From the IMG/VR virus record IMGVR_UViG_3300034138_000045, positions 1 through 39,308 of that record: a stretch of 39,308 bases of DNA; one strand, given 5' to 3'. The stretch comes from a virus. Position 1 is the first letter of the stretch, and each line of letters starts with the position of its first letter. The notes beneath the pieces are model-generated. The model had not been told where the DNA came from and did no database searches. It was given only the letters and a program-made list of their open reading frames with translations. A program made the position numbers and the translations under genes. Shown here in pieces: positions 1 through 39,308 of the stretch.

Positions 1-127
1 CAGCGTGGTGATGACCTCGAACCTGAGCAAACAAGCCTTCGAGGAGCGCTACGGGAGCGACGACCGGCTTACGAATCGCTCGGGTGCGTCGGTGGAGGTG
101 TACGACATCCCCGGCAAGAGCAAGCGC
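1..127. repeat. Terminal direct repeat, left copy (contig closure overlap)
   Basis: These 127 bases are identical to the last 127 bases of the window (39182-39308). The reading frame of the helicase loader continues without a break if the two copies are merged. A 127-base overlap is also the size of a common assembler k-mer, so the simplest reading is a circular assembly graph rather than a real terminal repeat on packaged DNA. Circularity or circular permutation follows; a true short terminal repeat cannot be excluded. Confidence 0.9.
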
Positions 128-148
128 AAGCCGCTCGAGTACGGGTGA
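2..148 (+). CDS. Helicase loader, 3' end (continuation of the gene at the window end)
   Basis: This is the C-terminal 48 codons of the AAA+ loader that begins near 38.6 kb. It includes the sensor-I and arginine-containing segments. Only the last six codons and the stop lie outside the terminal duplicate. The fragment has no start of its own because the contig was cut inside the gene. The next gene begins at the base after its stop. Confidence 0.85.
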   Translation, partial: SVVMTSNLSKQAFEERYGSDDRLTNRSGASVEVYDIPGKSKRKPLEYG

Positions 149-1666: not shown

Positions 1667-2178
1667 GCAATCGGCCCGACCCGTTCCGCCGCGACCCTGG
1701 TGCGCCGTTCGATAACCTCGAGCGCGAGCAGTACGCCCAGGCGCGTGCGAAGGGCGCGAGCATCAAAGCTGCGTGCGCGGCAGCGGGCCTGAGCCCTGAG
1801 ACCGGCACGAAGCTCGAGCGGCACGAAGCCATCCGCAAGCGCATCAGCGAGCTACGGCAGGGCGCCGAGACCTACGTCGGCGTGTCGAAGGCTTGGATTC
1901 TGCAGCAGCTACAGCGCAACGCCGAGGAGGCGCGCGACAACGGGGCGTACAAGGCAAGCAACGAAGCGCTCATCAGCATCTACAAGATCATCAGCGAGGA
2001 CCGCGGCGTCGGCCACGACATGGCGCGCGCGCTGCCGCCCAACGTGTCGCCCGCCGAGCTGCAGAAGCGCCTGAAGGAGAGCTTCAAGGCACCTCGGCTG
2101 ACGGCTGGGCGTGAGCGCATCGAGCAGCCGGCATTCGACTCGGAGCCCGATGCGGCCGAGGCGGAGACCTTGCAGTGA
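1663..2178 (+). CDS. terS: Terminase small subunit
   Basis: 171 residues from a GTG overlapping the upstream stop by 4 bases. The gene directly precedes and overlaps the large terminase, the standard position for the DNA-recognition subunit. The N-terminal part contains a helix-turn-helix-like stretch (an alanine-rich helix, AAGLSPETGTKLERH, near residues 42-56) that resembles small-terminase DNA-binding domains. A long helical middle, probably for oligomerisation, and an acidic C-terminal tail follow. It would select phage DNA and start headful packaging. The call rests on position and fold pattern rather than strong sequence identity. Confidence 0.75.
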   Translation: MSNRPDPFRRDPGAPFDNLEREQYAQARAKGASIKAACAAAGLSPETGTKLERHEAIRKRISELRQGAETYVGVSKAWILQQLQRNAEEARDNGAYKASNEALISIYKIISEDRGVGHDMARALPPNVSPAELQKRLKESFKAPRLTAGRERIEQPAFDSEPDAAEAETLQ

Positions 2179-3710
2179 GCAAGAAGCGCCGCGAGAAGTG
2201 GGTCAACCCCGTCGTTCCGTGGGTAAGCGCCACGGTCGAGCAGCGCGTTTTGCTCGATGCTGCCTGGCGCGGCGGACACCTCGCGTTCCTACTCACGCCG
2301 TCGCAGCAGGACAGCTACAGCAAGATCCGCAAGTGGGAGAGCAAGGGCGAGGGGCGCGTGTTCGCGCTCGACACCAGCCGCCGCTGGGGCAAGTCCGTGC
2401 TGTGCCTCGTACTCGCCATCGAGGACGCGCTCAGGTATCCCGGTTGGCGCATCGTCTACTGCGCGCCGACGCATGACCAGGTCAAAAAGATCACGCTACC
2501 ACTCGTCGCACAGTTGACGCAGACGTGCCCGCCGCAACTCATCCCCGACTGGGTCAAGAGTGACGGCACGTTCGTGTTCGGCAATGGTTCTCGAATCGAG
2601 ATCGTCGGCCTCGACGTGCGGCCTGACGGTGCGCGCGGCACGGGCGTCGACAAGGTCATCTTGGACGAGGCCGGTTTCTTCGACAATCTCGAGTACCTGA
2701 TGGTTTCTATCATCTACCCGCAGATGCTTGGCCGCGACCATGCGCGCGTCATCGGAGCGAGCACGCCGCCGATCACGCCGATGCACTACTGGTCCAAGGA
2801 CGTCGTCGCCGACTGCATCAACAAGAACGCGCACGACCGTAAGACCCTCGACGACGCCGACCAGTACAGCCACGAAGAAATCGAGGCAGAGTATGCGCGC
2901 ATGCCGGGCGGGCGGGGCGGCGTCGCTGCAAGACGAGAGTACGGCGCCGAGCACATCGCTGACGAGTCGATGCAGATCGTGCCGGAGTTCAAGGATGCGG
3001 AAGAAAGCATCGTGCGCGCGGTGGAGCCGCCCGTGTGGCGCGACTGCTACGTAGCGCTCGACCCAGGCTTCCACGACCTCTCCGCGGTGCTGTTCGGGTA
3101 CTGGGATTTTCTCGAGCAGAAGCTGGTGGTGGAGGATGAGATCGCCGAGCCGCGCTTGAACTCGAAAGAGCTGGCGACCGCGATCAAAGCGAAGGAAGCG
3201 AAACTCTGGGGCAACGTGCGGCGGCGTGGCTCGGGCAGCAGCTACGACACCAAGCCCCAACCCTACCTGCGCATCAGTGACAACGACCTGCGGCTGATTG
3301 CCGACCTGCACCACGACCATGGCCTCGCGTTCATCCCCACGCAAAAGGACAACCTCGTGGCGCAGGTAGACCAGGTGCGCGTCGCCATGCAGAACGGGCA
3401 GATCCTCATCAACCCACGCTGCCGCAAGCTCGTGCTGCATCTGAAGCACGGCGTGTGGAAGAAGGTCGGCAGCATGTTCGGCCGCGAGGGTGGCGAGCTC
3501 GGGCACTTCGATACGATCGCCGCGCTCGTGTACCTCTGGCGCAACGTCCAGAAGCGACGCAACCCGACGCCCGCGCTCGAGCGGTTCGTCTGCGGCGACA
3601 TGCGCGTGCCGGGGTCCGCAGCTCAGACGCCGAGCAAGTGGGCCGCCGAGGGACCGCGGCTCAAGCGCCTCGGCCAGAAATACTACGTCAAGACAGGGAG
3701 GACCGCGTGA
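2175..3710 (+). CDS. terL: Terminase large subunit
   Basis: 511 residues; the packaging motor and nuclease. The ATPase half has a Walker A-type DTSRRWGKS at residues 66-74 and Walker B VILDEAGFF at 161-169, followed by a coupling motif ASTPP near 195-199. The nuclease half begins with ALDPGFHD at 294-301, with the catalytic Asp at 296, and ends with GHFDTIAALVYLW, which supplies a further metal ligand. Length and motif order match headful-type terminases. The GTG start overlaps the small-subunit stop by 4 bases. Confidence is high. Confidence 0.95.
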   Translation: MSKKRREKWVNPVVPWVSATVEQRVLLDAAWRGGHLAFLLTPSQQDSYSKIRKWESKGEGRVFALDTSRRWGKSVLCLVLAIEDALRYPGWRIVYCAPTHDQVKKITLPLVAQLTQTCPPQLIPDWVKSDGTFVFGNGSRIEIVGLDVRPDGARGTGVDKVILDEAGFFDNLEYLMVSIIYPQMLGRDHARVIGASTPPITPMHYWSKDVVADCINKNAHDRKTLDDADQYSHEEIEAEYARMPGGRGGVAARREYGAEHIADESMQIVPEFKDAEESIVRAVEPPVWRDCYVALDPGFHDLSAVLFGYWDFLEQKLVVEDEIAEPRLNSKELATAIKAKEAKLWGNVRRRGSGSSYDTKPQPYLRISDNDLRLIADLHHDHGLAFIPTQKDNLVAQVDQVRVAMQNGQILINPRCRKLVLHLKHGVWKKVGSMFGREGGELGHFDTIAALVYLWRNVQKRRNPTPALERFVCGDMRVPGSAAQTPSKWAAEGPRLKRLGQKYYVKTGRTA

Positions 3711-4215: not shown

Positions 4216-6408
4216 ATGGCCATCCCCGCAACCAGCCCACTCATCGACGAACTCGCCGCGCGCGCGCTCGACGAAGATCCGAGCCTGCTCGGCGACCCCG
4301 AGAACGACAACGGCGAGGAGGAGCCCGAGCCCTACGACTACGCCGAAGATTTTTGGCTGATGAAGCCGTACTTCTCCGAAGAGTTCGCCTCGGACGTCGT
4401 CGAGCGCTTCTCGCGGCATCTGGACGCATGGAGCAACGGCAGCCTCGGTAGCACCGTCTGGTCTGCATATCGGGCGTACCACAATTTGAGCGGCGTCGAT
4501 GGTGACCCCATCACGCAGCTGCAGGCGACGGGCGAGGTCGGCGAGCTCTTGGCGATGGCCATCCCGCACTACCGCTCACTCGTGCGCCATCAGATCGCCC
4601 TGTTCACGGCCGAGCGCCCAGCATGGGACCCGCAGGCGCGTACAGCCGATGCAGACAGCGCGCGGCAGGTGCCCATGGCCAGCAACCTGCTCGACTTCGT
4701 GGCGAGCGTCGGACATCTCGACGCGCGGCTCGCGGAGCAGTGCGAGCTGATGATGGTTGCGGGCGAAGGCTACATGATCGTCGGGTGGGACGAGAACACC
4801 GGGCTCGGTGGGCGCGGCTGGTTCACGCAGCGCGTGTACGCTCCGTGGGAGGTCGCCCACGAGCGCGTGCGGACGTATGATGACACTACCTGGTGGATCC
4901 ACCGCGCGTTTGAGAACCGCTGGGACTGGGTCGCTAGGTTCGCGACCGACGACCCCGAGAAGGCCGAGCGCATCGCGAAGATCGACGCGGACAAGGGCGA
5001 GTTCGCAACGGCGTTCAGGGAGTACGAGCAGCACACCGTCACCGACGACGGCGACCGCATTGCGGTGCTCTACGTGATCGCCAAGCCCACCATCGCCTGC
5101 CCGCAGGGGCGTCTGAGCATTGTGGCCGCAGACGATCTGGTGCTGTTCGACGGTCCTTACCCATACGGCGAGGATGTCACCGTAAGCCGCCTGTGCGCGA
5201 GCGAGTTCCTGGGCACCAGCATCCCGTTCTCGGACTCCTGGGGCGTGCTCGCAGCTGCAGAAGCCAGCAACGCCATCCTGAGCATGATCCTGACGCGCAT
5301 CGACACGTGCGGCGTGCCGAACTTCTGCGTGCCCGAGGGCAGTGAGATCGAGTTCAGTGACGTCGCGGGTGGCAATGCCGTGTGGAAGCTGCCGCCTGGG
5401 ATGGAGAAGCCGTCTGTCGTGGACCTCTTGCAGATCCCCGACGTGCTGCCGGCCATCTACCAGATGCTGTCAGGCGAGATGGAGAAGACCGTCGGCGTCA
5501 ACAGCGTCACGCGCGGACAGCCGCAGGAGAACGTCTCGAGCGGCTCCATGGCGGCGCTGCTGCAGAGCATGGCGATCCAGTTCAACTCGAACCTCGAGCG
5601 CGCATGGGTGCTCAACCTCGAGCGCATCGGCACGCATCACATTCGCGTGTTCCAGCGCATGGCGACCGAGGAGCACGCCGTGTCGGTCGTCGGTGCAGAC
5701 CAGCGCTGGACGGTGAGTTCGTTCAAGGGCGAAGACCTCGGCGGCATCCTGCGCGTGTCCGTAAAGACCGCGAACGCGCTCAGTAAGACGACGGCCGGGC
5801 GTGCGGAGATCGGCGACAAGCTCTTGCAGCGAAGTGCCATCACTCCGCAGGAGTACCTGCGCATCATTCAAACCGGCCAGCTCGAGCCCACCTTCCACGG
5901 ACCCGTCGGCGAACTGACCTCGATCAAGTCGCGCGGCGAGAAGCTGCAGCGCGGACAGCCGGCGCCCGCGCTCGTGTGGGACAACCACAGCCTATGCATC
6001 AGGGAGTTCAAAGGGCTGCTCAACACCGAGGCCAGGAACGACCCGGCGATTGCTGGGGTCATCAATCAGGCCATCCAAGAACACTTCGACCTGTGGGGCA
6101 AGCTGTCGCGAGAAGCGCCCGACATGCTCGCCGCCATCGGCTGCCCGCCCTTGCCTGAGGCCCTCAGCACGGGCGCCCAGGCGCGCGCCATGCAGGCGCA
6201 GGCGATGGGCCCAGGAGCGCCTCCAGGGGGCGTAGGCGCCCAGGGACCGGGCCCACAGCAGGTCAAGCAGCCCGAGACCGACGCGCCCCGCGGTAGGCCA
6301 GGACCGACGCCTGGGCCGAGCGGCTCGCCGCCGTCACGCGCGGCGCCCACGCAGCCGTCGATGCCCAAGCCCGCCGTGAACCCGATGAACGGCGAGCCCG
6401 TCGTCTGA
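4216..6408 (+). CDS. Portal protein (P22-like size)
   Basis: 730 residues, close to the length of the P22 portal. The gene lies between terminase and scaffold. The acidic N-terminus leads into the usual portal core: a long helical stem region, a mixed crown/wing region (ADDLVLFDGPYPYG near residue 310), and a segment SVTRGQPQENVSSGSMAALL near 430-450 that resembles a conserved portal stretch. The last 80 residues are rich in Pro, Gly and Gln and probably disordered. It forms the dodecameric vertex through which DNA is packaged and ejected. The stop is followed by a good Shine-Dalgarno for the scaffold gene. Confidence 0.9.
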   Translation: MAIPATSPLIDELAARALDEDPSLLGDPENDNGEEEPEPYDYAEDFWLMKPYFSEEFASDVVERFSRHLDAWSNGSLGSTVWSAYRAYHNLSGVDGDPITQLQATGEVGELLAMAIPHYRSLVRHQIALFTAERPAWDPQARTADADSARQVPMASNLLDFVASVGHLDARLAEQCELMMVAGEGYMIVGWDENTGLGGRGWFTQRVYAPWEVAHERVRTYDDTTWWIHRAFENRWDWVARFATDDPEKAERIAKIDADKGEFATAFREYEQHTVTDDGDRIAVLYVIAKPTIACPQGRLSIVAADDLVLFDGPYPYGEDVTVSRLCASEFLGTSIPFSDSWGVLAAAEASNAILSMILTRIDTCGVPNFCVPEGSEIEFSDVAGGNAVWKLPPGMEKPSVVDLLQIPDVLPAIYQMLSGEMEKTVGVNSVTRGQPQENVSSGSMAALLQSMAIQFNSNLERAWVLNLERIGTHHIRVFQRMATEEHAVSVVGADQRWTVSSFKGEDLGGILRVSVKTANALSKTTAGRAEIGDKLLQRSAITPQEYLRIIQTGQLEPTFHGPVGELTSIKSRGEKLQRGQPAPALVWDNHSLCIREFKGLLNTEARNDPAIAGVINQAIQEHFDLWGKLSREAPDMLAAIGCPPLPEALSTGAQARAMQAQAMGPGAPPGGVGAQGPGPQQVKQPETDAPRGRPGPTPGPSGSPPSRAAPTQPSMPKPAVNPMNGEPVV

Positions 6409-6424: not shown

Positions 6425-7552
6425 ATGCCAGAAGCCCAGACGATCGACATCGAGCCCGAGGGACCACGCCCTGAGCGCGTCCCGAGCCCCTCGCGAAGGA
6501 ACACGACCGACTCACTCATCGAGTCGGTCCTCGACTCGCTCGGTCCTGACAACGACAACGGGACCAAACCAGCCGAGGAGCCACGCGCCAAGCGTGGCGC
6601 ACCAGAGCGCGACGAGCAGCAGAGCGAGGTCGAGCAGCCGGTCCCCTCGGAGACCGAACCCGACGACGCCGAAGGCGAGCCAAAGAGCGCTGAAGAACCG
6701 GAGGAGAGCGACGGGCATGGAAAGCTAGGGTCCAAGGAAGACCCGTTCACGGTCAAAGACCTGCCGAAAGATGCCTTCATCGAGCTGAAGGTCGACGGCG
6801 AGAAGCTGACCGTATCCATGGACGAGCTCGCCGCGGGCTACATCCGCGAAGCCACGTTCAATCAGCGGATCAACAAGACGAAACAGCTCGCCGACGAGGC
6901 GCAGGCCGCACTCGGCAAGGCGAAGGAGACGCAGCAGAAGACGCGCGACGCGTTCCGCGAGTTCGTCTCGGACCCGGAGCAGCTCTACGAGTTCTTCCTC
7001 GCGAGCGAAGACCGAGAACAGATTCTGCAGGACGTCGCGGTGCGGTACGCGGCGCTCGTCCGCAAGTTCAGGGAGAACCCGGCCGAGAAGCTCGCGTTTC
7101 AGCGCCAGCGCGACGTGCAGCGGCTCAACGCCGAACGCGAGCACTTCGAAGCTCAGAAGCGCGCCGAGATGGAAGAAAAGCAGCGCAATGAGATGGTGCA
7201 GCGCGCGCAGTCTATCTTCCGTCCGGGCTGGGAAGCGGGGCTCAGAAAGGCCGGGTTTCCGCAGCCTACCAAGGAGCTGTACGAAGAGGTCATGGTGCGC
7301 TGCAACCAGCGTGCAGCGACCGGCGCTCCTGTCACGAGCGACGACGTGACCGACTTCGTGGTGCGTGCGGCGAAGCTGCTCGAGCTGCCGCCAGCGAGCG
7401 CACGCGGCAAGCCGAAGCCCGCGCCCGCTGCGCCTCCGAAGCCCAAGCCCGAAGCTGCACGCAAGAGCGCGTGGGCCGACGTGCCGGTCAGCAAGAAGCG
7501 TCGGGACCCGGAATTTTTCCTGCAGAACCTCAAGAGTCGCGACTTCAGGTAG
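6425..7552 (+). CDS. Scaffolding protein
   Basis: 375 residues directly after the portal with a GAGGAG ribosome site. The first 110 residues are acidic, Pro/Glu-rich and disordered. A compact segment with FTVKDLPKDAFIELKVDGEKLTV-like strands follows, then a long Lys/Glu/Gln helical region (roughly residues 150-270) that should form coiled coils. The C-terminus is Pro/Lys-rich and basic, as in P22 scaffold, where the basic tail binds coat protein. Position and composition support an internal scaffold that leaves the procapsid. Unusually, the capsid gene is not next but about 4.5 kb downstream. Confidence 0.8.
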   Translation: MPEAQTIDIEPEGPRPERVPSPSRRNTTDSLIESVLDSLGPDNDNGTKPAEEPRAKRGAPERDEQQSEVEQPVPSETEPDDAEGEPKSAEEPEESDGHGKLGSKEDPFTVKDLPKDAFIELKVDGEKLTVSMDELAAGYIREATFNQRINKTKQLADEAQAALGKAKETQQKTRDAFREFVSDPEQLYEFFLASEDREQILQDVAVRYAALVRKFRENPAEKLAFQRQRDVQRLNAEREHFEAQKRAEMEEKQRNEMVQRAQSIFRPGWEAGLRKAGFPQPTKELYEEVMVRCNQRAATGAPVTSDDVTDFVVRAAKLLELPPASARGKPKPAPAAPPKPKPEAARKSAWADVPVSKKRRDPEFFLQNLKSRDFR

Positions 7553-8998: not shown

Positions 8999-9289
8999 AT
9001 GCCGCGAATCGCGCCAGAGCCTGACCACGTTCTCTACGAGCTGGGCAAGCTCATCAAGCGCCAGCGCATCGCGCGCGGCACGCACCAGTACGACTTCGCG
9101 GCGCTTATCGGCGTGCATATCTCGACGCTCCGGCTCTACGAACACGGTCAGCGGAATCCTCCGATCGACACGCTGGTGCGCATGGCACACGGCTGCGATC
9201 TCGCACTGAGCCAGTTTCTTTCGCCGCTCGATCACATCGAGGTGCCCGTGAGGGAGCCGCGCAAGAACAAGCCGAAGGCTCCGAAGTGA
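8999..9289 (+). CDS. XRE-family helix-turn-helix regulator
   Basis: 96 residues. Residues 10-75 form a Cro/CI-type HTH: LGKLIKRQRIARGTHQYDFA, then AALIGVHISTLRLYEHGQRN as recognition helix and following turn, then the PPIDTLVRMAHGCDLALSQF closing helices. The C-terminus is short and basic, with no peptidase or dimerisation domain, so it is Cro-like in size. It is the first gene of the plus-strand accessory operon and overlaps the next regulator by 4 bases. It probably controls the divergent junction upstream. Confidence 0.85.
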   Translation: MPRIAPEPDHVLYELGKLIKRQRIARGTHQYDFAALIGVHISTLRLYEHGQRNPPIDTLVRMAHGCDLALSQFLSPLDHIEVPVREPRKNKPKAPK

Positions 9290-9768
9290 CGCTCGAGGAG
9301 GTGCGGAAGTTGCTGGAAGAGGCGATGGACTTCCACAGCGAGCACTGGCTCGAGGAGGCGGTCAGGCGTCTCGAGTCGCAGCGGCACTCGCAGCAGTTTC
9401 GCCGCATCTACGACATCACCACCGTGGGGGCGCGCATCAGGACCGCGCGCGAGACGGTCGGGCTCACGCAGCACCAGCTCGCCCGCCGCATGGGGTGGCA
9501 CCCGTGGGCGGTCAGCAACCTCGAGACGGGCCGCAGGAACCTCGACGCCCAGAAGCTCCCAGGGCTCGCCACGTGCCTCATGGTGAGCCGCGCGTGGCTG
9601 CTCATGGAGTCGGACGAGGGCGGGCCTCCCCTGCCCACCAAGGTGCTGCGGAAGCAAAAGCGGGTGAACTGGCAGCAGGCGACCGCGAAGCAGAAGAAGA
9701 AGGCGCGCGCCAAGGCCGAGCTCGAGCGGCTCAGGGGGCTGAGGCCGCCGAAGGAAACAAAGCCATGA
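9286..9768 (+). CDS. Second XRE-family helix-turn-helix regulator
   Basis: 160 residues from a GTG overlapping the previous stop. A helical N-terminal arm (residues 1-45) precedes an HTH at about 47-105: GARIRTARETVGLTQHQLAR followed by RMGWHPWAVSNLETGRRNL. The C-terminal 50 residues are Lys/Arg-rich and helical. No LexA-type autocleavage site is visible. Two XRE proteins in series could be a repressor/antirepressor pair that sets the lysis versus maintenance choice; the sequence does not say which is which. The gene ends inside the first octamer repeat upstream of parA. Confidence 0.8.
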   Translation: MTLEEVRKLLEEAMDFHSEHWLEEAVRRLESQRHSQQFRRIYDITTVGARIRTARETVGLTQHQLARRMGWHPWAVSNLETGRRNLDAQKLPGLATCLMVSRAWLLMESDEGGPPLPTKVLRKQKRVNWQQATAKQKKKARAKAELERLRGLRPPKETKP

Positions 9769-9789
9769 CGTCATGACGTCTTGACGCCG
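9766..9789 (+). repeat. Three tandem 8-bp repeats upstream of parA (candidate centromere/operator, site 1)
   Basis: Three contiguous octamers: TGACGTCA, TGACGTCT and TGACGCCG. The first is a perfect palindrome. They lie between the stop of the XRE gene and the parA start. In type Ib partition systems (ParA with a ribbon-helix-helix partner) the centromere is a set of short direct repeats upstream of parA that also acts as operator. A related copy with two octamers is at 10576-10591. The match of position and repeat style is good; binding is inferred. Confidence 0.7.
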
Positions 9790-9816
9790 CGAGCTTATTT
9801 CGCCACAACCGCCTAC

Positions 9817-10458
9817 ATGGCAACCATAACTTTTGGCGGGCAAAAAGGGGGCGCGGGCAAGACCGCGCTCACCATGCACCTGGGCGCGGAGTGGCTGCGC
9901 CGGGGAAGGAGCGTGCTGCTGGTCGACGCCGACCCGCAAGCGCACGTGCTCAAGTGGCACGGCATCGGAGTCGCGAAGGACCAGCCCGTGCCGGGCGTGG
10001 TGGGCGTCGGAGACGGGCTCAGGGCGGTCGTAGGGCCGCTCTCGCGCCAGCACGACGTGACCATCGTCGACACGGCCGGGCGGCACAGCCGCCGCCTCGG
10101 TGGGGCGCTGGCCATCACCGACCTGGTGCTCTTGCCGGCCAAGCCCGAGCCCGGCGACGTGTGGTCGCTCGAGGACTCGATCGAGCTCGTGCGCGAGGTG
10201 CAGCACGTGCGCCCCGACATGCGCGCGGCCATCGTCATGTGCTGCACGCGTGCGACCCGCATCGGCAAGGCGGCGCGCGACGCCATCGCCAAGGCCAAGA
10301 TACCGGTCCTCGGCACGAGCCTGCGGTACTTCGTGACCTACAGCGAGGCCCAGGCGGCGGGCAGGGGCGTGTCCCTGTACGCGCCCAAGTCGCAGGCGGC
10401 CGACGAGCTGCGCGCGCTGGCTGATGAGCTTGAGGGGTTGCTCCATGTCGCGGCGTAG
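9817..10458 (+). CDS. parA: ParA/Soj-family partition ATPase (type Ib size)
   Basis: 213 residues. The deviant Walker A KGGAGKT is at residues 10-16, the A' motif LLVDADPQA near 34-42, and Walker B VTIVDTAGR near 84-92. There is no N-terminal HTH, and the length fits type Ib ParA proteins, which work with a small ribbon-helix-helix centromere binder. Such a gene follows here with a 14-base overlap. ParA proteins bind DNA non-specifically with ATP and move plasmid copies apart. The ATG at residue 13 of the longer open frame was chosen because the deviant Walker A normally starts about ten residues from the N-terminus. A partition ATPase is a hallmark of extrachromosomal prophages. Confidence 0.9.
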   Translation: MATITFGGQKGGAGKTALTMHLGAEWLRRGRSVLLVDADPQAHVLKWHGIGVAKDQPVPGVVGVGDGLRAVVGPLSRQHDVTIVDTAGRHSRRLGGALAITDLVLLPAKPEPGDVWSLEDSIELVREVQHVRPDMRAAIVMCCTRATRIGKAARDAIAKAKIPVLGTSLRYFVTYSEAQAAGRGVSLYAPKSQAADELRALADELEGLLHVAA

Positions 10459-10786
10459 CCAGGTGGAACTCAACCTTGGGGGGAGCGTCACGCAGCCGGC
10501 GCCCGAGCCCGTGGCCCGCGCCATCGAGGACCTGTTCTCGCGAGACGGGGAACGACGGGCAGGGGAACAACGCCATGACGTCACGACGCCGCAAGCTCGC
10601 GTCGGCAGTTGGGCGCGTCCGCGCGTACGCCGCTCGGATGGGGTCGAGACGCGCGCGACCACGGTGCACCTGCCGATTGACCTGGCCGAGGCGCTCGACG
10701 CTATCCGCATCCGAACCCACCGACGGCTGAGTGACCTGCTGGTGGAAGCGGCGCGCGAGAAGTGGGCCGGAGGGAGGACCAAGTGA
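10445..10786 (+). CDS. Ribbon-helix-helix protein, probable ParB/ParG-type centromere binder
   Basis: 113 residues; the ATG lies 14 bases inside parA. The C-terminal part (about residues 70-108) is a clear RHH/CopG unit: a strand with TRATTVHLPI, then helix DLAEALDAIRI and helix RRLSDLLVEAAREKW. The N-terminal 65 residues are Arg-rich and low in structure, as in ParG and omega-type partners, where a mobile arm stimulates ParA. The second set of octamer repeats lies inside the coding sequence of this arm. Partition partner is inferred from fold, size and position. Confidence 0.75.
   Translation: MSRRSQVELNLGGSVTQPAPEPVARAIEDLFSRDGERRAGEQRHDVTTPQARVGSWARPRVRRSDGVETRATTVHLPIDLAEALDAIRIRTHRRLSDLLVEAAREKWAGGRTK
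10576..10591 (+). repeat. Second octamer site inside the RHH gene (site 2)
   Basis: Two adjacent octamers, TGACGTCA and CGACGCCG. The similarity to site 1 runs wider: 10563-10583 matches 9753-9773 at 19 of 21 bases, and 10584-10597 matches 9782-9795 at 12 of 14. The only large difference is one extra octamer in site 1. Conservation inside coding sequence suggests a DNA-level function or a copy made by duplication. Confidence 0.65.
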
Positions 10787-26164: not shown

Positions 26165-26365
26165 ATGGGGCTCGAGGACAAAGCGAAGAAGGTGGCGGGC
26201 GTGGTCGCAGGCGTCGCCGTGCTTGTGAACGTGCGGCGCAACGACCTGCACGATGAGGTCGATCTCGTGAGCCTCGCGGGCGTGCCGCTGTTCAGCCGTG
26301 ATGAGAAGGGCAACCCGCGTCTGTTCGGCATTCCCCTGAAGCGCCGCAGAGCGCCGCGTGCGTGA
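26165..26365 (+). CDS. Small protein of the lysis cassette, unknown
   Basis: 66 residues with an AGGAGG site 7 bases upstream. The first 25 residues are weakly hydrophobic and helical (KKVAGVVAGVAVLVNV), and the rest is charged with a basic tail (KRRRAPRA). It sits between the small membrane protein and the amidase, overlapping the latter by 8 bases. Role unknown; an accessory lysis or envelope function is possible. Confidence 0.55.
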   Translation: MGLEDKAKKVAGVVAGVAVLVNVRRNDLHDEVDLVSLAGVPLFSRDEKGNPRLFGIPLKRRRAPRA

Positions 26366-27038
26366 GCCGCAGAAGCCGCGCGAGGGCGGGCACATCATCT
26401 GCCGCGGCTCGCGCGTGCAGGTGCCGTTCCCCGTGCAGACGTGGGAAACCACCGGCTGGCAGTTCCACGGACGCAACCGCACGCACGGACGCGTGATCGT
26501 GCAGCACTGGACCGGCGCGGAGAACGCCCCGGTGAACATGTACGCGAACATGCTCAACCACACGAACGTCTACAAGATCGCGGAGCCTTTGAGCGTCCAC
26601 TTCGCGATCGACCAGATGGGCCTCATCTACCAACTTGCGGACACCGAGCTCAAGTGCGTGCACACGCCTGGCGCGAACGCGTTCTCGATCGGCATCGAGC
26701 ACATTGGACGCGGGTCCGATTTGAGCAAGCCCGCCAAGGGCTGGGAGCGCGAGCGCGTCACCGACACCATCCACGGCCACCGGGTGCGCTACGACAACCT
26801 CTTGCCCGCGCAGATTGAAGCGAGCGTGCGACTCAATGAAGCTCTATGCGCGCTCTATGGGCTTCCTATGCGCGTACCCGAGGACGCTGCCGGCAAGCTC
26901 CTCTCGACCAAGCTGACCGACGAGCAGGCGAGCGTGTTCCGTGGATGCGCCGGGCACCTTCACTTCGGCATCAAGAACGATCCGGGCCTGCGCCTGCTCC
27001 AAGCCATTCAAGAGCGCGGGCGCGAGCTCGCCCGGTAG
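26358..27038 (+). CDS. N-acetylmuramoyl-L-alanine amidase (endolysin, Amidase_2 family)
   Basis: 226 residues from a GTG. The zinc site of the Amidase_2/PGRP fold is visible: His50 in VIVQHWTG, His200 in GHLHFGIKNDPG, and Asp208 of the DPG triad, with the supporting Lys206. The core also holds SVHFAIDQMGLIYQLAD and GANAFSIGIEHIG, standard for the family. There is no separate cell-wall-binding domain and no signal peptide, so holin-dependent release is expected. It cuts the amide bond between muramic acid and the stem peptide. Confidence 0.9.
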   Translation: MREPQKPREGGHIICRGSRVQVPFPVQTWETTGWQFHGRNRTHGRVIVQHWTGAENAPVNMYANMLNHTNVYKIAEPLSVHFAIDQMGLIYQLADTELKCVHTPGANAFSIGIEHIGRGSDLSKPAKGWERERVTDTIHGHRVRYDNLLPAQIEASVRLNEALCALYGLPMRVPEDAAGKLLSTKLTDEQASVFRGCAGHLHFGIKNDPGLRLLQAIQERGRELAR

Positions 27039-30683: not shown

Positions 30684-30712
30684 TTGCAAGGGTGTACCCC
30701 CTGGCAGATAAA
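30684..30712 (+). promoter_or_regulatory. Candidate rightward promoter
   Basis: TTGCAA and GATAAA are separated by 17 bases, four of six matches each to the sigma-70 consensus. The candidate lies just upstream of the AT-rich palindrome, so a regulator bound there could control it. It is the best match seen in the region but remains a prediction. Confidence 0.4.
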
Positions 30713-30761
30713 CTATTGCATATATACGGGGTGTATGCTGGTGGTGATTCGTATATAGGCA

Positions 30762-30787
30762 ATAGATTCGACCGCGGTCGATTCTAT
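30762..30787. repeat. AT-flanked 26-bp near-perfect palindrome
   Basis: A perfect 14-bp core, TCGACCGCGGTCGA at 30768-30781, is extended by five more matched pairs after one mismatch on each side. Outside it, GTATATAG (30751-30758) and CTATATATAC (30784-30793) add imperfect pairing, for a total symmetric element of about 43 bases. Size and symmetry suit a dimeric repressor operator or a replication/transcription structure. Confidence 0.65.
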
Positions 30788-31010
30788 ATATACAACACGT
30801 CAGGTCTGCAGACACTCAGACGGCGGCGTCTAGAGAAATAGCGGTGTGTCTAGTGAATGGGTGGCGCACGGCTCAGGGGTGCGGCTCTCCCAGCTCACGG
30901 TGACACGCGCCCTGTCAACCTCGCCTAGCCGAATTCTACCTCCAGCCATAGAGGTGCCAACCGCTGGTTGCGCCCCCCTAACTAGGCTAGGTTCGGTGAG
31001 CTGCGAGGGT

Positions 31011-34517: not shown

Positions 34518-35065
34518 CGGCTCCCAAGCCTTTTTGGGACTGGGCCTTCCCCGAGCCGAACACAGGGTGCTGGCTGTGGACCGGGGGCTGCTTCTCCCAC
34601 GGCTACGGCAAGCTCCGCTATGCCGGCAAAACGTCGTACGCCCATCGCGTCGCGTACGAGCTTCACCACGGCGTCACACCCGAGGACGGGTACGTGTGCC
34701 ATCGCTGCGACAACCCCCCATGCATCAACCCGGATCACCTGTTTCTCGGCACAGCTCGAGACAATGCGCTCGACATGTTCCGAAAGGGCCGTGCACGCCA
34801 CAACCCCGTGAAGGGCGATGCGCACTGGGCTAAGACGCACGGCCACGTGCTCTCAGCCGCTCTCAAGGCGCGGTACGCCAAGCACCCGCCCGCAAGGCGC
34901 GGCGTTGCGCATCACGCCCATAGGCTGAGCGAGCATGACGTGCCGATCATCCGCACGTTATCGCTCTGGGGAGTCTCCAACGCGCAACTCGGACGAATGT
35001 ACTCGCTCAACCCCGCCACCATTCGGGCGGTTGTGGTCCGCAGGAACTGGAGACACGTGCCATGA
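34514..35065 (+). CDS. HNH homing-type endonuclease with C-terminal HTH
   Basis: 183 residues from a GTG overlapping the annealing gene by 4 bases. The HNH unit is intact: GCWLWTG near 18-24, HRVAYELHHG, then the cluster VCHRCDNPPCINPDHLFLGT near 61-80 that carries both catalytic His residues and the zinc cysteines. The C-terminal 60 residues include an HTH-like segment (GVSNAQLGRMYSLNPATIRAV). It lies between two functionally linked recombination genes, which suggests insertion of a mobile nuclease. Confidence 0.8.
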   Translation: MTAPKPFWDWAFPEPNTGCWLWTGGCFSHGYGKLRYAGKTSYAHRVAYELHHGVTPEDGYVCHRCDNPPCINPDHLFLGTARDNALDMFRKGRARHNPVKGDAHWAKTHGHVLSAALKARYAKHPPARRGVAHHAHRLSEHDVPIIRTLSLWGVSNAQLGRMYSLNPATIRAVVVRRNWRHVP

Positions 35066-35892
35066 TCGTCAGAGATTTTCCGATTGCCGATTACCACGCC
35101 GATCGCGAGTACACCTCGCACTCCAAGATCCGCGACTTCGTCGAGAAGGGGCCGCGCTTCTACTTCGAGCGCCACATCGCGCACACCATCGAGCGCGAGG
35201 AGACGCAGCCGTTCTGCTTTGGCAACGCGTGCGAGTACCTCGTGCAGCAGGGCGGCGAAGCGTTCTCTCGGAAGTACGCCGTCAAGACGCTGCCCGGCAA
35301 CACCAAGGGCGGCAAGCAGTGGGCAGCGGCCCAGGACGCAGCCGGCAAGACCATTATCTCGCAGGCCGACTACGACGCGATGCTGCACATGGTGGAGGCG
35401 CTGCAGACCGACTGCCAGAAGGGCATGGACCTCATCGAGCACGCCGAGCAGCAGGTGACGCTCCGCGGCGAGCTGCACGGCGTGAAGGTGCAAGCGCGGC
35501 CCGACTGGGTGAACCTCGACGAGTACGCCACCTACTCGGTCGACCACAAGACCACCAAGAACATGCGCGACCTGTTGGTCGACCTCGACACCTGCGGCGC
35601 GTCCATCTGGAAGCTCGGCTATCACAGCCAGGCGGCGCTCGTACGCGAGCTGCTTCGGCAGAACGGCTACCCGCACGTCAGCTGCTATCTGCTCGTTGCC
35701 GAGAAGGTGCAGCCCTATCGCGTCGAGTGCATCGACATCGAGCACCTGTTAGACGCTGGCGATGCGTGGCTCGCGCGCTTTCTGCCGAAGCTCGCGGAGT
35801 GCCAGCAGAGCAACACGTGGCCGCGCTCGAGCGGAGGGATCGTCAAGATCCAAAAGCCCAAGTGGATGGACGAGATTCCGACGCACACCTGA
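35062..35892 (+). CDS. RecE-like PD-(D/E)XK exonuclease
   Basis: 276 residues, similar to the C-terminal nuclease domain of RecE (exonuclease VIII type, DUF3799 pattern). Visible motifs: SHSKIRDFVEKGPRFYFE near 19-36, FGNACEYLV near 53-61, RPDW at 146-149, and the D-x-K pair at D161/K163 in VDHKTT. The segment GYHSQAALVRELL is the Q-helix of the family. The position usually held by a conserved His (FGxAxH) is Glu58 here. With the annealing protein it would form a two-component recombination system. Confidence 0.8.
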   Translation: MIVRDFPIADYHADREYTSHSKIRDFVEKGPRFYFERHIAHTIEREETQPFCFGNACEYLVQQGGEAFSRKYAVKTLPGNTKGGKQWAAAQDAAGKTIISQADYDAMLHMVEALQTDCQKGMDLIEHAEQQVTLRGELHGVKVQARPDWVNLDEYATYSVDHKTTKNMRDLLVDLDTCGASIWKLGYHSQAALVRELLRQNGYPHVSCYLLVAEKVQPYRVECIDIEHLLDAGDAWLARFLPKLAECQQSNTWPRSSGGIVKIQKPKWMDEIPTHT

Positions 35893-37138: not shown

Positions 37139-37648
37139 TTCGGGGCTCCTGGGCGCTCCTCGTGGCGCTCTGGGGGCCTTGCTCGCTTCGGCTGGCCCTC
37201 GCCATGCTCTGTCCCACCCGGACGCAAAGCAGGAGCGCGAAGAGGGCCAGCCGGGGTGGGCGCTTTTGTCACAGCGCCTACTAGCTTGACCGGTGTGAAC
37301 GAGCGGGGAGACGCTTCGAGTTCGCGCGCTCGACACGAGCAGTCCCGGAGCGCGGGTTACGGGTCAGTAGGCAGCCCTTTGAGGGGCGGACGATCTCGCT
37401 GGTTCCGGGGGGAATTACAGCGTGGGGCGTCTTATTGCGCTCGGAGTGTCGAGATGGCGGGAAAAGTGTGTGGGGGCCCAGCAAATGCTGGCCTGGGGGA
37501 ATCCAGCGGAGTTAAAGAAAAAGACCCGGAGCGCTCTACCACTCCGGGCCTGCCTCGAGACGGTGTTTGGAAGCCCGTCGCCGAGGGGTGCATTGCTGCG
37601 CCTTACGCAGGTGAACCTACCCTGGCTTCCAGACAGGCGCAAGCCTCA
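37139..37648. ncRNA. Structured non-coding stretch before the initiator gene
   Basis: 510 bases with no convincing gene; frames here have mixed third-position use unlike true genes around them. It is dense in stems: an 11-bp stem (37190-37200 with 37242-37252), whose loop contains CCCACCC at 37213-37219 that can pair with GGGTGGG at 37254-37260 (a pseudoknot), a 6-bp stem at 37259-37278, a CCAGCA/TGCTGG hairpin at 37478-37491, a 7-bp stem at 37525-37548, and an 8-bp stem (37568-37575 with 37624-37631) enclosing a smaller one (37596-37610). A replication-control RNA or riboregulator is possible. The type label is tentative. Confidence 0.4.
37511..37548 (-). terminator. Intrinsic terminator on the minus strand
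   Basis: On the minus strand, CCCGGAG, a 10-base loop and CTCCGGG are followed by TCTTTTTCTTT, a good Rho-independent layout. No gene on the minus strand ends here, so it would stop an antisense transcript begun to the right, near or inside the initiator gene start. On the minus strand TTGACA (37659-37654) could serve as a -35 for it, but no clear -10 is seen. Confidence 0.5.
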
Positions 37649-38659
37649 ATGCATGTCAAAAGCTCGACACCCGACCGTCAAAGTTTTGACGCTGCGGCCG
37701 CGAACTCCAAGCCCCGTCGTAGCCGCCCCGACCCCTGGTATCCGCAACCCGTCAACCGCGCCGCGGTCTGGGCGCGCATGGACTACCTCGACGCGCTGAT
37801 TGCGTCGGACCTGCTCTCGCTGATGCGCGGCGAGGAGCGCTGGTCGGGCTCGCTCGACGACCTGCTCGCGTGCGCCGCCAAGCGCCTCGGCATCGGCAGC
37901 CGGAACCGGAAGCGCTTCTGGCTCGCCGTGGAGCGCATGCGCGCCCGTGGCCTCCTGTTCGAGGCCGAGGACCACGTGCACCTGCTCTACAGCGAGACTG
38001 CATTCCGCGAGTACAAGGGGCTCGCTCCTGATACTCACCAGATGGTGGCGAAAATCGCGCCGCGTGCGGTGCCCACTGCGCAGTCAGTGAGCAGTCAGCG
38101 AGCAGTCAGTGAGCACTCAGCGAGCACTCAGACAGAGCTAAGTAGCGGGATTTATTCAATACCCATTGCTAGAGAGAGAGAGAGAGAAGAGAAGAGAGAG
38201 AAACCCCCTACGGGGGTAAAGAGCCCCCCGGTGCGCGTGCCGCGAAAGCCGGACGCTCGGAAGCCGCTCTGGGGGAGGCTGCTCGCGGACGCCGCCAAGC
38301 GGCACGGGTTCATCGCCGAGAAGCTACTTACCTCGAAGCAAACGGCCGACGTGATCGCCAAGGCGAGCGCCCACGCAGACGCCGCTGGCGTGCCGCTCGA
38401 AGCCGCCATGGTCCGCCTGCTCGACGAGGGGCACAGGCGCTACCAGGACGAGGGCAAGGAGCTCAAGTGGTGCCTCGTGGACTGGCAGCCCGGAGCGCCC
38501 CCGCGACGCCGCTGGGGTAAGCCGAAGCTCGAGATTGCGCCCTGCTCGCCGGCCGAGGAGTTCGGCACCGAGGAGGAGGCACTCGAGAAGCTTCGCCGCC
38601 GCGAGCTCGAGGTCGCCGCTGACCTCGCACGCCGGGGGGTGCGCCGTGTCGGCACGTGA
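37649..38659 (+). CDS. Phage replication initiator, lambda-O-like, with embedded iterons
   Basis: 336 residues from this ATG. The N-terminal domain (about 30-125) is a winged-helix type (NRAAVWARMDYLDALIASDL, then RNRKRFWLAVERMRARGLLF). A low-complexity linker (about 140-190) is encoded by tandem DNA repeats and a GA tract. The C-terminal domain (about 200-280) is helical and ends in a charged tail. DNA-binding domain, linker carrying the origin repeats, then a partner domain, followed by a helicase loader gene: this is the lambda O-P plan. The start is uncertain: an upstream ATG at 37454 has a good ribosome site but its extra codons look non-coding. Confidence 0.7.
   Translation: MHVKSSTPDRQSFDAAAANSKPRRSRPDPWYPQPVNRAAVWARMDYLDALIASDLLSLMRGEERWSGSLDDLLACAAKRLGIGSRNRKRFWLAVERMRARGLLFEAEDHVHLLYSETAFREYKGLAPDTHQMVAKIAPRAVPTAQSVSSQRAVSEHSASTQTELSSGIYSIPIAREREREEKREKPPTGVKSPPVRVPRKPDARKPLWGRLLADAAKRHGFIAEKLLTSKQTADVIAKASAHADAAGVPLEAAMVRLLDEGHRRYQDEGKELKWCLVDWQPGAPPRRRWGKPKLEIAPCSPAEEFGTEEEALEKLRRRELEVAADLARRGVRRVGT
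37654..37691. promoter_or_regulatory. CGTCAAA operator-like cluster at the initiator start
   Basis: TGTCAAA (37654-37660) and CGTCAAA (37676-37682) are direct repeats 22 bases apart, about two helical turns. The second pairs with TTTGACG (37685-37691) to form a perfect 7+7 palindrome with a 2-base centre. They lie over the first codons of the initiator. Such phased sites suggest autoregulation by the initiator or binding by another regulator. Confidence 0.5.
38080..38134 (+). repeat. Five 11-bp direct repeats (candidate origin iterons)
   Basis: Contiguous units: GCAGTCAGTGA, GCAGTCAGCGA, GCAGTCAGTGA, GCACTCAGCGA and a last, partial GCACTCAGACA. The period of 11 is not a multiple of three, so the repeat is kept at DNA level and not as a peptide repeat. 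The sites fall on roughly the same helix face. Origins of lambdoid phages have the same design inside the O gene. Confidence 0.8.
38171..38203 (+). other. 33-nt all-purine tract (candidate unwinding element)
   Basis: Every base is A or G on this strand, mostly GA repeats. It lies 37 bases after the iterons, with an AT-richer patch (TTTATTCAATA) between. Strand-asymmetric purine or AT tracts next to iterons are where lambda-type origins melt. A hairpin, ACCCCC/GGGGGT with loop TAC (38203-38217), follows directly. Confidence 0.6.
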
Positions 38660-39308
38660 CAAGCCCGACGCGAAGCCGAACCCGTTCCAGCTCATCGCGC
38701 AGAAAGCCATCGCAGACCTCACGCCCGAACAGGGCGCCGACGCCGCGATGCGTGACGCGCGCCGCGCTGCCCAAGAGCACCAGGAGCGCCAGAGCGCCTG
38801 GCTCGATGCGGCGCTTGCGACGGCGCGGCTGCGCGGGGTGCGGTTCATCATGGAAAACCCCGACGCGGACAGCGTCGCGCTGCGGTACATCCGCGGCTGG
38901 TTCACCGCGCCGAAGGGGCCGCATATCCTGCTGCGCGGCCCAACCGGCACCGGCAAGACCGTGGCCGCTGCGTGGCTGGTCCGGCACTGCACCGAGCCGA
39001 ACGAAGCGCGCGGCAGCGTCGCGTGGCTCTACCCCGACGACGTGTGCAGCGCCGTGCTGCACGAGCGCTGGGACGAGAAAGCCCCGAAGCTCGCGCGCTA
39101 CGTCGTGGTCGACGAGGTCGGCACCGAGACGCGACCCGAGTTCACCAAGGCGCTCGCGCGGCTGCTCGACCGCGACTCGTGCAGCGTGGTGATGACCTCG
39201 AACCTGAGCAAACAAGCCTTCGAGGAGCGCTACGGGAGCGACGACCGGCTTACGAATCGCTCGGGTGCGTCGGTGGAGGTGTACGACATCCCCGGCAAGA
39301 GCAAGCGC
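38646..39308 (+). CDS. DnaC/IstB-like AAA+ helicase loader (5' part; continues at the window start)
   Basis: AAA+ ATPase that probably loads the host replicative helicase at the phage origin. Joined to the window start, the protein is 227 residues. Walker A GPTGTGKT is at residues 98-105, Walker B VVVDEVG near 153-159, a sensor-I stretch VVMTSN at 181-186, and an arginine-rich ERYGSDDRL segment at 194-202. The N-terminal 60 residues are helical and carry no zinc-binding cysteines, unlike some DnaC proteins. The GTG start overlaps the end of the initiator gene by 14 bases, so the two are probably translationally coupled, matching the lambda O-P order of initiator followed by loader. Family assignment from motifs is solid; the exact helicase partner is inference. 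Confidence 0.85.
   Translation, partial: MSARDKPDAKPNPFQLIAQKAIADLTPEQGADAAMRDARRAAQEHQERQSAWLDAALATARLRGVRFIMENPDADSVALRYIRGWFTAPKGPHILLRGPTGTGKTVAAAWLVRHCTEPNEARGSVAWLYPDDVCSAVLHERWDEKAPKLARYVVVDEVGTETRPEFTKALARLLDRDSCSVVMTSNLSKQAFEERYGSDDRLTNRSGASVEVYDIPGKSKR
39182..39308. repeat. Terminal direct repeat, right copy (contig closure overlap)
   Basis: Exact copy of the first 127 bases of the window. It lies inside the 3' part of the helicase-loader gene, a coding position that would be unusual for a natural terminal repeat and is expected for an assembly overlap. Removing one copy gives a unit of 39,181 bases. Confidence 0.9.

Follow-up and report, generated by a model that had tools for sequence, protein, structure and literature searches.

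Does the gene at 37649-38659 of this viral genome carry, within its own coding sequence, the origin from which the phage replicates? The window, by which we mean the whole stretch of DNA that was analysed, corresponds to a 39,308-bp virus record whose two ends have 127 identical bases in common; given this exact overlap, the record closes to a circle of 39,181 bp (GC content 66.9%). We infer, with a probability of roughly 85%, that the segment 38080-38217 is a phage replication origin lying within its initiator gene, since the strongest repeat array of the genome is found there, followed immediately downstream by the least stable 50 bp and accompanied by the sole long purine run and an adjoining helicase-loader gene. 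For a phage that is otherwise unplaced, this would narrow the origin to about 140 bp and pair it with its initiator and loader, a combination that can be tested as a minimal replicon.

A candidate initiator next to a helicase loader

The downstream gene encodes a DnaC-like AAA+ helicase loader of 227 amino acids (38646..39308, + strand), which runs across the circle junction to window position 148; its 3' end is accordingly found at 1..148 (+ strand), where positions 1-127 are a copy of the last 127 bases. The assignment follows from an AAA+ domain, a Walker A motif (GPTGTGKT) and matches to loader profiles (phrog_3277, E=1.7e-12; phrog_50, E=3e-11), and a single-sequence search for relatives of the loader returned none. 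The loader gene overlaps the end of the gene upstream by 14 nt. It is this upstream position that marks the product of 37649..38659 (+ strand, 336 amino acids) as a candidate replication initiator. The reading frame is open from a GTG at 37256, and the ATG at 37649 is the best, albeit uncertain, start.

The candidate has no match in Pfam or PHROG at credible E-values nor among PDB sequences, does not match the sequence of any known family of phage initiators, lambda O included, and yielded no relatives in viral contigs, genome contigs or sequenced phages. Because it is an orphan by sequence, its identity is argued from position and architecture. The N-terminal domain (37730..38053, + strand), which we propose as the iteron binder, is predicted to form a winged helix of the order helix-helix-helix-strand-strand; when modelled alone from the single sequence, it shows three helices and two strands at moderate confidence (mean pLDDT 68.8, pTM 0.60). 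A fold search of the PDB with this model gave no match at E<=0.001, and the best non-significant matches include winged helices of the MarR and linker-histone types. In the full-length model, which is poor, two parts are helical and the linker that spans the repeats is unstructured; support for a two-domain protein with a disordered linker comes from low-confidence models. An alignment of the candidate with two comparators (MAFFT) looked spurious and was discarded.

Elsewhere the genome encodes a terminase large subunit (2175-3710), a portal protein (4216-6408) for which a search found no relatives, a scaffold protein (6425-7552), an amidase endolysin (26358-27038) and a RecE-like exonuclease (35062-35892). 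The reading frame 9781-10458 encodes a ParA ATPase (phrog_164, E=1.5e-34), and next comes the gene for a small ribbon-helix-helix protein (10445-10786), which matches PF01402 weakly. Two direct repeats of 28 bp, 86% identical and both containing ATGACGTC, flank parA at 9768-9795 and 10570-10597, and the region 9768-10786 looks like a plasmid-type partition cassette of the ParA/RHH kind. Since, in addition, neither a tyrosine nor a serine integrase was detected in the genome, the virus is likely a phage-plasmid. Upstream of parA lie two adjoining, repressor-like regulators of the XRE/HTH type (8999-9289 and 9286-9768). Just upstream of the initiator gene, a strong leftward hairpin with a T-rich tail resembles an intrinsic terminator (37522-37551, - strand) and could mark the end of an antisense transcript; in lambda, the OOP RNA ends near the origin.

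Repeats, unstable DNA and purine tract within the gene

The sequence-only reading had described five direct repeats of 11 bp between the two domains of the protein, and these are indeed present at 38080-38134, on the + strand and with an exact 11-bp spacing. Iterons 1 (38080..38090) and 3 (38102..38112) both read GCAGTCAGTGA, and are joined by iteron 2 (GCAGTCAGCGA, 38091..38101), iteron 4 (GCACTCAGCGA, 38113..38123) and the degenerate iteron 5 (GCACTCAGACA, 38124..38134). The dyad contained in iterons 1 and 3 comprises only a 3-bp half-site (TCANTGA). The array is the top one of the window in Tandem Repeats Finder (score 90; next best 68) and ranks first in the genome for period matching as well (4.02 against 2.52 for the next window). 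It encodes residues 144-162 of the initiator and, as the period of 11 bp is not a multiple of three, its copies fall into three different reading frames and yield no peptide repeat (QSVSSQRAVSEHSASTQTEL). Selection on the DNA itself, which had been proposed from this non-triplet period, is in line with the finding that the array goes beyond what protein sequence and codon usage account for: the observed periodicity was reached by none of 20,000 synonymous recodings, which kept the protein unchanged and sampled codons at the frequencies of the phage itself, by one of 5,000 local codon permutations and by none of 10,000 codon-order shuffles. The copies may also bear traces of the reading frame. 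Iterons 1 and 3 end in a common TGA, which would be an in-frame stop in iterons 2 and 5, and these read CGA and ACA instead; this stop avoidance is suggestive only, because iteron 4 likewise reads CGA even though TGA would be no stop there.

Downstream of the repeats, the AT-richer patch noted earlier coincides with the minimum-stability 50 bp of the entire 39,181-bp genome as calculated from nearest-neighbour energies (38150..38199), which we regard as a putative DNA-unwinding element. It overlaps an all-purine tract of 33 nt (38171..38203, + strand). No other run of purines or of pyrimidines in the window reaches 18 nt, and similar tracts occur in other phage initiators. All four arginine codons within the tract are AGA, a codon that accounts for 2.1% of arginine codons genome-wide, and codon adaptation in the 50-codon stretch over iterons and tract falls below that of all 611 coding windows in other genes. 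As the same DNA must also encode a tolerant, disordered linker, codon choice at this place would be dictated by the function of the DNA.

The small hairpin described after the purine tract is likewise present (38203..38217, ACCCCC-TAC-GGGGGT, ACCCCCTACGGGGGT), with a C5/G5 stem of 6 bp in total, a 3-nt loop and an energy of -10.5 kcal/mol. By itself it is not significant, for perfect 6-bp hairpins are no commoner in this genome (49) than in shuffled sequences (57-60), and what speaks for it is its recurrence at this place in other phages. The GC-skew profile, which had been suggested as a check, proved uninformative, with its minimum at 17.3 kb, its maximum at 26.4 kb, a block-shuffle P of 0.085 and no pointer to 38.1 kb. 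A second low-stability region at 30.7 kb was considered as a rival origin and rejected, as it has no iteron array and is promoter- or operator-like. This region (30700-30810) is among the least stable of the genome, rich in TATATA, palindromic and poor in convincing reading frames, and looks like a divergent promoter/operator region.

Arrays upstream of DnaC-type loaders in other phages

Close relatives that could show conservation of the iterons were not found, and the array is known from one metagenomic record. A search of viral contigs for the exact iteron pattern gave nine matches, all of which fall in a single protein-coding segment that is conserved and in whose surroundings no loader was seen; they were judged unrelated. 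In these matches (L006-L014), GAGCACTCAGTGAGCACTCAGTGA lies in a segment that is conserved in many phages and apparently codes on the other strand (...LTECSLTECS...), a trap for iteron pattern searches that has no relation to the candidate origin. A search for the purine-hairpin pattern in viral contigs found none.

As the initiator is an orphan, genes for comparison were chosen by position, namely as viral-contig reading frames directly upstream of DnaC-type loaders (55 clusters after removal of near-duplicates). Other reading frames of the same loci served as controls, 144 for the array score and 196 for the counts of non-triplet arrays, of the recurring motif and of hairpins. Tandem arrays, defined by a score >2.4, occur in 71% of the 55 upstream genes and in 1.4% of the 144 controls (Mann-Whitney P=3e-23); score and threshold were picked after the window had been seen and initiators were assigned by position, so that the exact percentages are soft, and the contrast holds. 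The array score of the window initiator (4.09) would rank third among these genes. The arrays sit mid-gene (array centre at a median of 0.50 of the gene), and in 31 of 39 genes the least stable 50 bp lie no more than 150 nt from the array (uniform expectation 39%, P=4e-7), downstream in 18 cases as opposed to upstream in 5. Furthermore, 33-nt windows with at least 28 purines are found in 25% of the survey genes and in 1% of controls. An initiator-embedded array upstream of a DnaC-type loader is a general layout that is present in many unrelated phages, and this suggests a simple rule by which origins in uncultured phages might be located: to look mid-gene, upstream of a DnaC-like loader, for a tandem array.

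Beyond the arrays, parts of the downstream DNA recur as well. The motif AGAGAAGAGA is contained in 6 of the 55 initiators and in 0 of 196 other reading frames, and several of these initiators read CTAGAGAAGAG, which is near the CTAGAGAGAGAGAGAGAGAAGAGAAGAG of the window. Hairpins of a C-run and a G-run occur in 7 of 55 initiators compared with 2 of 196 controls (P=4e-4). In L036, L042, L048, L080 and L098, a C5/G5 hairpin lies in the linker right after an A- or purine-rich stretch, just as in the window, and the iterons differ. This recurrence of tract and hairpin beside differing iterons hints at a shared downstream module and poses the question of what reads it; since the peptides encoded there are partly similar too, selection may also act on the protein. 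Specialists may find use in the breadth with which the layout occurs among the surveyed genes and in the tract that recurs.

Three other explanations of the repeats have to be weighed against an origin. The array could be an operator from which a DNA-binding regulator represses or activates transcription from inside its own gene, while replication starts elsewhere. The predicted winged-helix domain would fit a regulator equally well, and iteron initiators often autoregulate. A sigma-70 scan of the region found no promoter-like site, with the reservation that a sigma-70 model may not suit the host, and an origin accounts better for the adjoining least stable DNA, the purine tract, the loader gene and the recurrence of this set in other phages; we therefore consider an operator very unlikely. 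The array might also have arisen by neutral slippage and have no function as DNA, in a disordered linker where tandem duplications and an AG microsatellite would be tolerated. In favour of this, linkers are permissive regions, the AG tract is a simple repeat and the iteron copies vary, and yet the account seems highly improbable: the five copies have a non-triplet period and an exactly kept spacing, their point changes avoid stop codons in the copies at risk, and the genome contains no second array like it; in addition, non-triplet arrays are found in 25 of 55 initiators versus 2 of 196 neighbouring reading frames.

Selection may finally have acted on the linker peptide, a basic and acidic, RE-rich stretch suited to protein contacts, with the DNA features as by-products. 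Peptides of a similar REEKREE type do appear at the purine tracts of some other initiators, which speaks for such an explanation, whereas others encode partly different peptides at similar tracts. The iterons encode no peptide repeat, and a need for arginine would hardly account for four AGA codons out of four, given the rarity of this codon in the genome. Selection on the peptide is in our view barely credible, and a replication origin is the reading that we retain.

Proposed mechanism and comparison with known origins

In the mechanism that we propose for this origin, the N-terminal winged-helix domain would bind the helically phased 11-bp iterons, and the assembled complex, aided by negative supercoiling, would open the adjoining 50-bp segment, whose instability and purine asymmetry are apparent from calculation and sequence. 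The order of the genes and the family of the loader suggest that the C-terminal domain may then recruit the neighbouring DnaC-like protein, and that this protein would load the replicative helicase of the host onto the exposed strand. We speculate, as a rather doubtful extension, that such origins, across unrelated phages, consist of two parts, in which iterons private to each initiator are combined with a common, interchangeable module (a CTAGAGAAGAG-like tract, sometimes with a C5/G5 hairpin) that is read by host or loader machinery and fixes strand and direction of helicase loading, and that in this phage the origin is used in a plasmid-like prophage state as well.

The sequence-only reading had called the locus a lambda-type origin with the O-ori-P layout and a different sequence. 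In lambda and the Stx phages, the origin is embedded midway along O (PMC7466680), and binding of O opens, on negatively supercoiled DNA, a neighbouring A+T-rich region of 40 bp that consists nearly entirely of purines on one strand (PMC5043065). The window likewise has repeated sites in the middle of the gene of an initiator recognised by position and predicted fold, then an easily unwound region with purines on one strand, and the loader gene directly downstream (PMC5043065; PMC7466680). When lambda O, in a record with annotated iterons (L028), was measured in the same way, the order recovered was iterons, then the least stable 50 bp and then an 18-nt purine run. It is thus the layout that stands, also in view of the survey, and not homology to lambda O and P. 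Lambda P is not known to be of the DnaC-like AAA+ type to which the loader of the window belongs, and the window initiator has no match to the lambda O family. In addition, lambda carries four imperfect inverted-repeat sites of 18-19 bp that are spaced 20-24 bp apart, in contrast to the five 11-bp direct repeats seen here.

In their short length, direct orientation and near-helical phase, the iterons are closer to those of plasmids such as P1, F, RK2 and R6K, which likewise lie beside an AT-rich opening site (PMC5043065). The ParA-type partition cassette is a further feature that the window genome has in common with iteron plasmids. Plasmid iterons are usually located outside the rep gene; those of the window, by contrast, lie inside the initiator gene, and the initiator matches no plasmid Rep family.

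The nearest counterparts in arrangement are survey loci such as L021, L060, L073, L049, L093 and L098, in which the array sits mid-gene, the least stable DNA is close to it and a purine tract is frequent, with a C5/G5 hairpin in some cases. Their iteron sequences and periods (9-25 nt) differ from those of the window, whose initiator has no sequence relative among viral contigs. Altogether, the layout of this putative origin is already known, and the window appears to carry, with no detected homology to O or P, a further case that has its own iterons and would work like ori-lambda.
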